Assembly (NCBI RefSeq): GCF_013155275.1 | Contig: NZ_JABJXS010000008.1 | Span: forward strand, 1 to 64,000 | Direction: 5' to 3' | Origin: Brenneria sp. hezel4-2-4 | Lineage (GTDB): Bacteria; Pseudomonadota; Gammaproteobacteria; Enterobacterales; Enterobacteriaceae | DNA: 64,000 nt | Part shown: positions 6,598-60,678 of the stretch, piece after piece | Layout: each line of letters begins with the position of its first letter | Position numbering within the stretch: position 1 is the stretch's first letter | Translations under genes and position numbers: made by a program | Notes under the pieces: generated by a model | The model's input: only the letters and a program-made list of their open reading frames with translations | What the model was told of the DNA's origin: nothing | The model's database searches: none

Positions 6598-6740
6598 GCG
6601 GGCGATGGCTTTTTCATTCTGTAATTAAATGACAGTATTGTGTGACCTGGTTTAACTTTGTGTCTTTAGCTGCGATTTTTTATGAAAGTAAACAACAAAA
6701 AAACTTTGTTCCGATGAAAAAATAATGTAGAGTTAAAGAT

Positions 6741-6846
6741 GTAGGGTACAGAGGTAAGATGTTCTATCTTTCAGACCTTTTACTTCACGTAATCGGATTT
6801 GGCTGAATATTAGCCGCCCCGGTCAGTTTTGACTGGGGCGTTTTTT
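6741..6846 (+). ncRNA. spf: Spot 42 small RNA
   Basis: This roughly 106-nt segment is nearly identical to E. coli Spot 42, starting at GTAGGGTACAGAGGTAAGA and ending with the GCCCC...GGGGC hairpin and T-run. Spot 42 is an Hfq-dependent RNA, repressed by CRP-cAMP in E. coli, that damps expression of secondary carbon-source genes. A -10-like TAGAGT at 6728-6733 lies seven bases before the start. It lies between polA and engB, exactly as in E. coli. The single-stranded pairing regions are conserved. Confidence 0.96.
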
Positions 6847-6848
6847 AT

Positions 6849-6976
6849 TCGTCTCATCCCTGAGACTCACCCTACGGGCCGTCACTACGTGACGTTGAAA
6901 AATGCTCCCGGCATTTTTTTATTCGTCACCATCCCTGATGACTCGCCCTACGGGCTACCACCATCCCTGCTGACTA
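6849..6976 (-). repeat. Three-hairpin repeat, one and a half copies
   Basis: Read on the minus strand, this is a copy of the dispersed element. Hairpin I is an AAAAATGC stem with a CGGGA loop (6898-6918). Hairpin II is GTCAC/GTGAC (6881-6893). A GGCCCGTAGGG linker follows. Hairpin III is GTCTCA-GGGA-TGAGAC (6851-6866). A second, partial unit (6923-6976) repeats the linker and hairpin III and touches the engB stop codon. It lies directly after the Spot 42 terminator. Confidence 0.8.
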
Positions 6977-8372: not shown

Positions 8373-8600
8373 ATGAAGTGGTTGTTCCTGCTGCTAACAT
8401 TCCTGGTTACGGTTTATCTTTTTTGTTTGTTAACCAAATTATGGATGCTGTCAAAACGCAAAGCGCGGCTGCATCGTGCGGTTTTTAACGGACGGCAGAT
8501 GCCAATGAGGCGAGTCTCAGGAATGAGCCGCGTGAAAAAACGCCGGGCGCGTTTTTCAACGTCACGCAGTGACGGCCCGAAAGGCGGTGAGCAGGGATAG
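8373..8600 (+). CDS. Small membrane protein of unknown function
   Basis: A 75-aa open frame starting three bases after the yihI stop. It has one hydrophobic helix at residues 3-27 (WLFLLLTFLVTVYLFCLLTKLW) and then a strongly basic tail. I do not recognise the family. From about residue 47 onward the coding sequence is made of the dispersed three-hairpin repeat, and the stop codon falls in the hairpin III loop (CAGGGATAG). An older gene may therefore have lost its original 3' end. The tight spacing to yihI and the membrane helix support translation; the function is open. Confidence 0.55.
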   Translation: MKWLFLLLTFLVTVYLFCLLTKLWMLSKRKARLHRAVFNGRQMPMRRVSGMSRVKKRRARFSTSRSDGPKGGEQG

Positions 8601-8611
8601 CCGCCAATAAA
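8512..8611 (+). repeat. Three-hairpin repeat inside a coding region
   Basis: A full plus-strand copy. Hairpin I is AAAAACGC-CGGGC-GCGTTTTT (8536-8556), hairpin II GTCAC-GCA-GTGAC (8561-8573), followed by the linker GGCCCGAAAGG. Hairpin III is GGCGG/CCGCC around the CAGGGATAG loop (8583-8605). A partial hairpin III-like segment (GAGTCTCAGGAATGAG) precedes it. It overlaps the 3' third of the small gene at 8373 and ends before the hemN ribosome-binding site. Confidence 0.8.
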
Positions 8612-8630
8612 AAAGACTGGAGTGAGCACG

Positions 8631-12195: not shown

Positions 12196-12238
12196 GGACA
12201 AATTAGCGACAATTTCGTGCGTCAGATTGTATTTCTTA

Positions 12239-12284
12239 CAGCGGGTTGTCCTTACCCGCTGTTTTGCCGGTCGCCGCCCGGCAA
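12239..12284 (-). terminator. Tandem hairpins downstream of glnG
   Basis: Two adjacent stems lie in the gap between glnG and yshB: TTGCCGG/CCGGCAA (12264-12284) and CAGCGGGT/ACCCGCTG (12239-12261). On the minus strand they follow the glnG stop by about 80 bp. They probably end or protect the glnALG transcript. Confidence 0.45.
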
Positions 12285-12362
12285 GGATAAATAACGTTTT
12301 GCCGTTTTTTACCCTCCGACGATCTTCCGGCGAACACTTGTGCAATAAAAGCGCAACCTCGG

Positions 12363-14954: not shown

Positions 14955-14995
14955 CAAAAAATTTTCAGGAAAATTTTTAATAACGCAAAGCGTTA
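14955..14995 (+). repeat. Partial three-hairpin repeat in the glnA-glnL gap
   Basis: An AAAAATTTT/AAAATTTTT stem around a short AGG-containing loop is followed by a TAACGC-AAA-GCGTTA stem. The order and spacing are those of hairpins I and II of the dispersed element, but the GGCCCGTAGGG linker and hairpin III are not clear. This is the most diverged copy. Confidence 0.45.
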
Positions 14996-15127
14996 GCTCG
15001 ACGGCTTTCCTGGAATGACGGGCATGGTTAGCCGGTCACAAAAACTATCTTAAAAACGGTGGTTCCGGCGGTAGCCTGACCGTCAGCACGATCAAACTAC
15101 CGCCTTACTTATGATGCAGCGCGGTGA

Positions 15128-45029: not shown

Positions 45030-46538
45030 ATGCTACATTTATTTGCCGGACTGGATTACTACACCGGCCTGATGTTGATACTGGCTTTGTTGTTTGTATT
45101 ATTTTATGAAGCCATCAATGGCTTTCACGATACAGCCAACGCTGTCGCTACCGTTATTTATACCCGTGCCATGCGAGCGCAGTTCGCTGTCGTTATGGCG
45201 GGCGTGTTTAATTTTTTCGGCGTGCTGCTGGGGGGACTCAGCGTTGCTTACGCAATTGTCCATCTGCTCCCCACGGATTTATTGCTGAATGTCAGTTCAG
45301 CTCACGGGCTGGCGATGGTCTTTTCCATGCTGCTGGCCGCCATCATCTGGAATCTCGGCACCTGGTATTTCGGGCTTCCCGCCTCAAGTTCGCACACGTT
45401 GATCGGCGCCATCATCGGTATTGGTTTAACCAACGCCTTACTGACGGATACCTCCGTGGTGGATGCGCTCAATGTTCCCAAGATGATCGCTATTTTCCTG
45501 TCGTTAATTTTATCGCCGATCGTCGGGATGATTATTGCGGGTCTGATGGTTTTCCTGTTACGCCGTTTCTGGAGCAACAGTAAAAAACGCAAGCGGGTAC
45601 ACCTTACGCCAAGCGACCGTGAAAAACAGGATGGTAAACGCAAGCCGCCATTCTGGACGCGTACCGCGCTGATTTTATCCGCTATCGGCGTCAGCTTTTC
45701 ACACGGCGCGAATGATGGTCAGAAAGGTATTGGTCTGATCATGCTGGTACTGATTGGCGTGGCGCCCGCCGGCTTTATCGTCAATATGAACGCCTCCGGC
45801 TATGACATCAGCCGTACCCGCGATTCCGTGGTCAATTTACAGGAGTATTATCAGCAACACGGCGCGGCGCTGGCGCATGTCATCGACCTTTCTCCGCCGC
45901 TGATCCCGGCGCCGGAAAAAACCATTCCGGCGAACGGCAACGTCGATTTTCACTGCGATAGCTCGCGCGTCATGATTGCCATCGAGCAAACCCAGGTGTT
46001 GTTGAGCAACCTGAAAAGCTACGAGCAGTTAAGCGCGGACGATCGCGGTAAAGTGCGCCGCTTGCTGATGTGTATTGCCGATACCATGGATCGGATCGTC
46101 AAACTGCCGGAAACGCCGACGGAAGATAGGCGCTACCTGAGCAACCTGCGTAACGACCTGCTGCATACCATTGAGTATGCGCCTATCTGGATCATCATCG
46201 CCGTCGCGCTGGCGCTCTCTCTGGGTACGATGGTGGGCTGGAAGCGTGTTGCAACCACGATTGGCGAGAAAATCGGCAAGAAAGGAATGACCTATGCGCA
46301 GGGCGTCTCGGCGCAGGTCACCGCCGCGCTGTCGATTGGCGTCGCCAGCTATACCGGGATGCCGGTCTCCACCACCCACGTGTTGTCATCGGCGGTCGCC
46401 GGGACGATGATCGTTGATGGCGGCGGCGTTCAGGGTAAAACGGTGAAAAATATCCTGCTGGCCTGGGTATTGACGCTGCCGGTATCGTTGTTGCTGTCCG
46501 GCACCTTGTACTGGTTGGCATTAAAAATTATTTTGTGA
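45030..46538 (+). CDS. pitA: Low-affinity inorganic phosphate transporter PitA
   Basis: A 502-aa metal-phosphate/proton symporter of the PiT family with about ten membrane helices. The paired family signatures are [18 protein letters not shown] near residues 32-49 and its repeat [12 protein letters not shown]. The charged cytoplasmic loop between about 180 and 200 and the segment [16 protein letters not shown] are also typical. It is E. coli-like throughout. Its stop codon touches the first unit of the 73-bp repeat array. Confidence 0.95.
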
Positions 46539-46717
46539 GGGTGATGGGCAGGGATAGCCCACATAAAAAATTTCCTGGAGAAATTTTTAACGTCGCTTGC
46601 GACAGCCCGCAGGGTGATGGGCAGGGATAGCCCACATAAAAAATTTCCTGGAGAAATTTTTAACGTCGCTTGCGACGGCCCGTAGGGTGATGGGCAGGGA
46701 TAGCCCATCATAAAAAA
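46538..46717 (+). repeat. 73-bp tandem array of the three-hairpin repeat
   Basis: Two complete 73-bp units start at 46538 and 46611 and a third is cut off after hairpin III at 46684. Each unit has hairpin III (TGGGC...GCCCA around CAGGGAT), hairpin I (AAATTTC-CTGGA-GAAATTT) and hairpin II (GTCGC-TT-GCGAC). The two full units are almost identical, pointing to recent duplication. The array fills the space between the pitA stop codon and the terminator. Confidence 0.9.
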
Positions 46718-46745
46718 GGCGATTCTTACAGGATCGCCTTTTTAT
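46712..46745. terminator. Bidirectional pitA/uspB terminator
   Basis: The stem AAAAAGGCGAT/ATCGCCTTTTT (about 46713-46743) has T-runs on both strands. It lies between the convergent pitA and uspB genes. Confidence 0.88.
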
Positions 46746-49939: not shown

Positions 49940-49974
49940 CGCCCGCTGCTTAGCCGAGTAGCGGGCGTTTTTTT
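49940..49974 (+). terminator. ibpAB terminator
   Basis: The stem CGCCCGCT (49940-49947) / AGCGGGCG (49960-49967) is followed by seven T residues, about 30 bp after ibpB. Confidence 0.9.
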
Positions 49975-49975
49975 G

Positions 49976-50048
49976 CGTGCTATCCCTGCCCGCCCCCTGA
50001 CGGGCCGACGCTTCGCGTTGTTGAAAAACGCTCCCGGCGTTTTTTTCT
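49976..50048 (-). repeat. Three-hairpin repeat between ibpB and yidE
   Basis: Read on the minus strand: hairpin I AAAAACGC-CGGGA-GCGTTTTT (50024-50044), hairpin II ACGC-GAA-GCGT (50008-50018), linker GGCCCGTCAGG, and a degenerate hairpin III around CAGGGATAG (49976-49997). Hairpin II differs from the other copies yet stays paired. Confidence 0.75.
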
Positions 50049-60590: not shown

Positions 60591-60603
60591 GCCTATCCAT
60601 TTT

Positions 60604-60678
60604 ATCACGGGTGTCCTTGCCCGTTACCCTACGGGCCGTCGCACGCGACGTTTAAGATCGCTCCCGGCGATTTTTTGT
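60604..60678 (-). repeat. Three-hairpin repeat between dppA and dppB
   Basis: Read on the minus strand: hairpin I ATCGC-CGGGA-GCGAT (60657-60671), hairpin II CGTCGC-GT-GCGACG (60637-60650), linker GGCCCGTAGGG, hairpin III ACGGG/CCCGT around CAAGGACA (60607-60624). It lies inside the operon and may act on the transcript. Confidence 0.8.

Follow-up and report, generated by a model that had tools for sequence, protein, structure and literature searches.

The 64-kb stretch of Brenneria sp. hezel4-2-4 DNA analysed here, referred to below as the window, carries a dispersed repeat that probably belongs to the family of Escherichia coli RrA, RrB and RrF, a module made of four RNA hairpins. Within this kinship, the window repeat is a variant of the tRNA-linked repeat (TLR)/Rr family: it is homologous to the known members, yet two features that define TLRs, the setting in an RNA operon and the copied 3' end of the upstream RNA gene, are missing.

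An earlier note had proposed that six loci of the window share one repeat architecture, and the window sequence bears this out, all six carrying the repeat on the strands then assigned to them. The unit is 73-82 nt long and comprises, in this order, an A-tract, hairpin I, AACG with hairpin II, the stretch GGCCC-NNN-GGG, hairpin III and usually ATAAAAAA, with which most window units end. Between tandem units, CATAAAAAA is common to both neighbours. Hairpins I, II and III were recovered as previously described, and the stretch then taken as a linker (GGCCCGTAGGG) was found to fold itself, as GCCC-NNN(N)-GGG. The unit is thus best read as four hairpins, the fourth being suggested more by folding and invariance than by covariation. 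Its loop is GTA in just 6 of 26 aligned units of the source genome, and two-sided changes affect 0, 1, 1 and 2 of its pairs in four alignments (A1, A3, A2 and A7, respectively; see below). Folded singly, five of seven units adopted the four-hairpin shape; among the five window units folded, it was clear for those at 46638 and 6839 (z -3.40 and -2.85), present with variation at 8534 (z -1.64), and absent at 60596 and 49965 (z -1.13 and -1.61).

Copies were searched with a covariance model, R1, built from 26 hand-picked units of the source genome (alignment A1), 14 of 40 loose core matches having been dropped as degenerate or due to chance. In the window, R1 identified eight units at seven places, with partial units flanking three of these places; a ninth match (46582-46662, minus strand, 21.9 bits) is the mirror of an array. 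This array contains the best window copy, a complete unit at 46638-46718 (plus strand, 102.6 bits) with a predicted four-hairpin fold of -27.8 kcal/mol. Its hairpin I (46639-46661, plus) has an A/T-rich outer stem and a CTGGA loop that contains GGA, with 4 of 8 pairs covarying, and its hairpin II (46664-46677, plus) is of the CGTCG/CGACG type, with a loop devoid of GGA and 3 of 6 pairs covarying. They are followed by the small fourth hairpin, GCCC-GTA-GGGT (46678-46688, plus), whose loop is variable and in which 0 of 4 pairs covary, and by hairpin III (46689-46709, plus), with a GGA-containing AGGGATA loop and 4 of 7 covarying pairs. Upstream lie a second complete tandem unit (46565-46637, plus, 71.7 bits) and, immediately adjoining the stop codon of the gene that precedes the array, a 5'-truncated unit consisting of hairpin III alone (46539-46564, plus). 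Downstream, sequence and relatives point to a terminator-like hairpin (GGCGATTC..GGATCGCC followed by T5; 46718-46743, plus), whose A-tract coincides with the ATAAAAAA that closes the array. A simple terminator scan of the array region reported nothing, including at this hairpin.

The other window copies are scattered on both strands. A complete unit (6840-6920, minus, 80.4 bits) separates the gene at the engB position from the terminator of the Spot 42 RNA, which Rfam places at 6731-6847, and is accompanied by a partial upstream unit with the mini-hairpin and hairpin III (6921-6976, minus). Another one (8534-8615, plus, 79.9 bits) has a CGGGC loop without GGA in hairpin I and follows a partial, hairpin III-like unit (8510-8533, plus). 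Two further complete units are found, one at 49965-50046 (minus, 76.3 bits), in direct contact with a terminator-like hairpin encoded on the other strand, and one at 60597-60676 (minus, 81.0 bits). To these were added a weak degenerate copy at 12231-12311 (minus, 27.6 bits, E 6.8e-6), which had escaped the earlier note, and an old degenerate copy between the glnL and glnA positions (plus, 52.5 bits, supported by relatives); a partial copy had been described there at 14955-14995, but the worn copy is longer and spans 14956-15046. As first proposed, copies are mostly located between genes or at their ends, except that a 75-codon ORF upstream of hemN (8373-8600, MKWLFLLLTF...) runs into the 8534-8615 unit, the repeat supplying its last codons; in relatives, the hemN-side site contains different repeat debris. 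Rfam searches of the window matched a soft-rot-enterobacteria 3' UTR, and no family, RtT (RF00391) included, matched the repeat copies at gathering score. The window also begins with a 5S gene (7-122), in the next 180 bases of which no unit was found, while two other 5S-type tails of the genome have one.

Extending the R1 search to the whole source genome, as the earlier note had advised, returned 106 matches at E<=1 and 94 at E<=1e-3, the E-values of this model and of R2 (see below) being rough. Removing three matches on contig C7 that mirror contig C6 left 91 units in 73 arrays; the mirrored matches of these two contigs look as though the assembly contained one portion in duplicate. Of the 73 arrays, 4 adjoin 5S or tRNA genes and 13 comprise more than one unit, all on the same strand by the merging rule used, which leaves inverted pairs outside that count. 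Scoring 78 candidates per genome gave between 42 and 78 matches in each of the eight other genomes of the genus, and an R1 match at E<=1e-3 was found in 29 of 59 genomes, including the source genome.

A simple pattern restricted to hairpin II and the mini-hairpin matched at least 115 stretches. Those listed were derived from Serratia, Citrobacter, Pectobacterium, Brenneria, Pantoea, Yersinia and Dickeya, as well as from Pseudomonas, Stenotrophomonas, Alcanivorax, Zetaproteobacteria and others; many of them contain a complete unit, and some a tandem period of 73-76 bases. In Pectobacterium polonicum, for instance, the pattern matched nine times in one tandem array (L098:2533-3153), in most cases 74 bases apart. 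Two matches stand apart: the one in Celeribacter (L137) looks fortuitous, and the Bacillus subtilis entry (L153) reads as a contaminant. Early counts omitted 35 of the 115 listed loci, which were added in the loop count of 119 units given below; L358 was left out. A second covariance model, R2, was built with the loops of hairpins I and III masked, from 16 training units taken among R1 and pattern matches. At E<=1e-6, R2 detected the module in 89 of 369 genomes of the class Gammaproteobacteria, source genome included, and R1 in 94 of 369. In a sample of the phylum, 41 of 299 genomes matched; 24 of these were outside the class, 21 of them belonging to one family.

The covariation of stems noted in the window was borne out by larger alignments. 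In A1 (26 units), two-sided changes occurred in 11 of 25 pairs (shuffle mean 6.0, with 0 of 500 shuffles as high) and 91.0% of paired cells were complementary, compared with a mean of 84.7 after shuffling and 37.7-48.8% when partners were slid; of the five measures used, further pair types discriminated least, 27 of 500 shuffles doing as well. Instead of vanishing as sequences were added, an outcome that the earlier note had envisaged, covarying pairs rose to 21 of 25 in A2 (80 of the 115 listed stretches, contributing 117 distinct matches, some of them on the reverse strand), 22 of 25 in A3 (41 distinct matches at 29 class-wide loci) and 20 of 24 in A7 (46 distinct units of 40 other genomes, collected with the loop-blind model). 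For A7, the score was 0.477, against 0.149 for shuffled alignments and at most 0.069 for slid partners. Fitting to the structure model makes A2, A3 and A7 lean towards it, the slid controls having been run on the same alignments, and the shuffles ignore kinship among sequences.

The identity of the repeat was revealed by the E. coli copy that follows 5S rRNA, which R1 matched end to end (73.2 bits, E 1.3e-22). In Citrobacter, a copy lies directly 3' of 5S rRNA, and a 141-base query consisting of this unit and its flanks found a match in 3950 of 5426 E. coli genomes; in the one genome inspected, the copy lies between rrf and mobB. According to PMC8144298, E. coli RrA, RrB and RrF correspond to the T1-T2 spacers of rrnA, rrnB and rrnD and are small RNAs of the TLR class, a group with no known function before that study. 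RrB was recovered by pull-down of CsrA, a global regulator, and bound it in vitro in mobility shift assays at about 100 nM, the shift being lost within the tested range once three GGAs, both loop ones included, were changed to UUU; the in vivo effects of RrA/B/F were modest and alike for deletion and overexpression (PMC8144298). In the same text, scores as CsrA RNAs are below 0.01 for the 19 remaining TLRs of E. coli, and the homologs given for Rr are 5S-linked and span 12 genera and no fewer than 31 species, exclusively Enterobacterales, with Brenneria and Pectobacterium included. A literature search, covering titles and abstract starts of mostly open literature, recognised no paper on dispersed or class-wide TLR/Rr members.

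The source genome holds the unit in three settings: dispersed, 5S-linked (C8:182 and C10:42390) and tRNA-linked (C23:484134 and C23:484390). With E. coli RrA/B/F, the family shares an 80-nt unit from end to end, the order of hairpins and GGA in loops I and III, and its linked members also share strand-specific linkage to a stable RNA gene. The window copies, in contrast, are outside RNA operons, between protein genes or at Spot 42, and are found in tandem and dispersed at about 70 places; and where TLR units are followed by an 18-19 nt copy of the 3' end of the upstream RNA gene, window units have A-tracts instead. The two tRNA-linked copies of the source genome overlap Rfam RtT (RF00391) and are devoid of GGA loops, while the window copies fall below the gathering score of that family. 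The possibility that the repeat was already described, raised in the earlier note, is therefore half true: it is homologous to RrA/B/F and two copies overlap RtT, but its window copies match no Rfam family.

Linkage to stable RNA genes was assessed in a loop-blind sample, which excluded the source genome and six training genomes and took one unit from each of the 40 best-scoring of the other 82. A tRNA gene lies within 150 nt of the unit in 22 of these 40, with 25 neighbours on the same strand and 1 on the opposite one, and an exact repeat of 14-20 nt out of the last 26 nt of the tRNA follows the unit in 15. Moreover, the T-arm halves TTCGA and ATCC bracket the unit in 17 of the 40, as in 15 of 32 units of the R1 set. 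Same-strand tRNA neighbours and T-arm bracketing indicate that linked units are in sense with the stable RNA.

A second recurrent feature is the occurrence of GGA, scored in the loop plus closing pair, in hairpins I and III. Among 119 distinct units of the 115 listed stretches (133 matches, 4 of them too close to an end), GGA was present in 87 of 114 detected hairpins I and 80 of 111 detected hairpins III, and the first 80 listed stretches gave 66 of 85 and 64 of 83, respectively; among the units without GGA are copies of Enterobacterales that are linked to 5S and whose loops are of the GAAA or GAAT type. With loop-masked R2, the best 40 of 82 genomes had GGA in 37 hairpins I, 32 hairpins III and 2 hairpins II, counting as misses one unit with masked letters in loop I (L391) and two in which GGA was seen by eye in hairpin III (L380 and L406). 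Across the R2 units, stems vary and loops stay. Class-wide R1 matches gave 32 of 32 and 29 of 32, figures that are biased by the GGA loops contained in R1, and 15 R1 matches from 14 of the 24 genomes outside the class gave 11 and 13, which is likewise biased upwards. In the source genome, GGA was found at hairpin I in 59 of all 91 units and at hairpin III in 43, and both loops of the 5S- and tRNA-linked copies are without it. Unit loops such as CAGGAAG, CAGGACG and AAGGAT agree with the CsrA recognition rules given in PMC7652899, namely the CsrB repeat CAGGA(U/A/C)G, the SELEX consensus RUACARGGAUGU and the ANGGAN hexaloop.

The tRNA- and rRNA-linked members most likely bind CsrA, a property that was shown in vitro for E. 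coli RrB and that the kept loops suggest elsewhere, and the family as a whole has the look of an ancient RNA module of the CsrA type that is synthesised together with stable RNAs. The source genome has one csrA; to our knowledge, CsrA is general in the Gammaproteobacteria, so that its co-occurrence with the module is no test of this idea. As for the question whether a folded RNA or a cruciform is under selection, RNA is favoured for the tRNA/rRNA-linked members, given their same-strand linkage and conserved GGA loops, but the dispersed copies of the window show no strand bias. CsrB/CsrC and RsmX/Y/Z are dedicated small RNA genes that also consist of series of GGA-loop hairpins, and they are candidates for RNAs that work alike, through a likeness of architecture, homology aside.

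These observations can be tentatively assembled into a broader scenario, which we regard as a serious possibility. An ancient proteobacterial module of tRNA and rRNA transcripts, present across the Gammaproteobacteria and in at least one further class (probably Zetaproteobacteria), would free a CsrA decoy in proportion to stable-RNA synthesis, tying CsrA to growth rate, and may have escaped in several lineages to become a high-copy, terminator-side repeat. The core of this reading is more probable than the scenario as a whole. The module is composed of four short hairpins, with GGA in loops I and III as in CsrA/RsmA sites. In many proteobacteria it is transcribed as part of a tRNA or rRNA operon, and is hence produced whenever stable RNA is made, with a copy of the 3' end of the RNA gene following more than one third of the sampled units. 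Such linked RNA most likely binds CsrA; it would be released by tRNA/rRNA processing, which would couple it to growth rate. The module also occurs outside RNA operons in Brenneria and in some members of Pectobacterium, Pseudomonas, Stenotrophomonas and Alcanivorax; in the source genome, it has colonised about 70 sites, many of them next to terminator-like hairpins, and has multiplied in tandem. The scattered copies are probably passengers for the most part, and only those that happen to be transcribed in sense could bind CsrA.

The history of individual sites illustrates this dispersal. At the pit locus, the array occurs in the source genome and one other (G004) and is absent from the other seven of nine species, in which the stop codon is followed by ATAAAAAA and by this terminator-like hairpin. 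Between glnL and glnA, a unit match was detected in 8 of 9 species, with shared flanks visible in 7 of the 8 and G004 assigned by position; in this old copy, hairpin II is worn and much of it is lost in several of the 8 species. On the Spot 42 side, a match was assigned by position in 6 of 9 species, with weak scores in two (28.1 and 21.4 bits), and the flanks of the copies at 49976 and 60604 found no match among the stretches of relatives compared. Genome-wide, the gene upstream of the 73 arrays is on the same strand in 31 cases and on the opposite strand in 40, with none in 2 (home-made gene caller), and 62 arrays of other genera, at 61 of the 115 listed loci, gave 29 and 33. Retention of GGA was also comparable in antisense copies (28 of 38 hairpins I and 20 of 38 hairpins III) and in sense copies (18 of 35 for both). 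Together, spread, presence/absence, lack of strand bias and decay of the old copy argue against a general role at mRNA 3' ends, and the scattered window copies look more like passengers than working switches. Elsewhere in the genome, unit-like matches at C1:225280, C5:21743 and C23:75398 end next to ERIC-like sequences, as if they had been inserted into ERIC or alongside it.

Dispersal raises the question of a mobile element acting at the DNA level, REP- or MITE-like, in which a transposase or another enzyme would recognise folded single-stranded DNA and GGA loops would serve as marks. This is an unlikely reading, to which the patchy occurrence at the pit locus, tandem growth, the absence of strand bias and the terminator-side position nevertheless lend some weight. 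It also draws on a MITE-like repeat of about 205 bp, six copies of which, 93-99% identical, each include one unit (C1:243971, C12:4649, C12:11888, C5:14541, C6:10561 and C23:447130-447326). By eye, this repeat has ends of the TGACAAAG..CTTTGTCA type, and its hairpin III, GGGGCACAAGGATGTGTCCC in some copies, is near the CsrA SELEX consensus. Similarly, Stenotrophomonas units (L103, L107, L113, L123, L150, L167 and others) appear by eye to sit between the two halves of GTAG-type REP-like palindromes, a composite that might be moved by a RAYT. However, no Y1/RAYT gene (PF01797) was detected in the source genome or in G002, G004 and G008, with 73-76 scored matches each, none of the 30 Y1 loci examined (of 64 matches) has a unit within about 1.5 kb, and a mobile element leaves the same-strand tRNA linkage unexplained.

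A REP/RAYT system had been our first idea, based on a GTAG in the linker and AACGTC in hairpin II that fitted PMC3733652. With REP/BIME elements, with which the earlier note suggested a comparison, the unit shares its short, palindromic, intergenic and clustered nature and its many copies. It differs in that the GTAG lies in the loop of the mini-hairpin and is not conserved (6 of 26 units), that the CGTC bases are paired and do not form a free tag, and that no Y1 transposase was found linked to it in the genomes and loci examined, and the idea was dropped on these grounds. ERIC is likewise an intergenic enterobacterial repeat; as generally described, its sequence and architecture are different from those of the unit. 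CsrR1 of Alcanivorax, located in the 5' UTR of hfq according to PMC9788540, was also rejected: R1 found nothing at hfq in the two genomes behind L091 and L096, and a motif inspection of three loci showed no hfq.

Returning to the preferred reading of dispersed passengers descended from an RNA module, it has to be weighed against copies that act in place, as CsrA-binding hairpins in mRNA 3' ends forming a distributed sponge or a stability element. A 3'-UTR CsrA sponge was once considered as the general role of the dispersed copies and was lowered to a rival by the strand counts; we now hold it to be somewhat less credible still than a mobile element. It would account for the pit array, placed exactly between stop codon and terminator-like hairpin, for full units that offer up to two GGA loops, and for a strong hairpin found directly beyond 33 of the 73 arrays, compared with 11.9% when 4000 positions were drawn at random and 138 of 564 for A6 runs, a control that includes the A-tracts of the units themselves. 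Against it stand the nearly even strands of upstream genes, both in the source genome and in other genera, the equal conservation of GGA in antisense and sense copies, and the loss of much of hairpin II from the glnL-glnA copy. Finally, that ordinary terminators or mRNA-stabilising hairpins recurred by convergence is highly improbable and, as a whole explanation, is refuted by homology: the A-tract and T-tract of hairpin I do resemble a two-way terminator, but the four hairpins have a fixed order and conserved loops, an 80-nt end-to-end match extends across genera and orders, and the pit locus has a separate terminator-like hairpin beyond the unit.

While the Rr homologs in PMC8144298 are confined to Enterobacterales, a loop-blind search found the module here, its loops included, in 89 of the 369 gammaproteobacterial genomes sampled. 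TLRs can thereby be defined by a structure that they have in common, and the rrnB T1-T2 cassette proves to contain a member of the family. This cassette is present in many cloning vectors. A link between stable-RNA synthesis and CsrA becomes testable in many bacteria, and the Brenneria copies suggest a route by which dispersed repeats can arise from a regulatory RNA.
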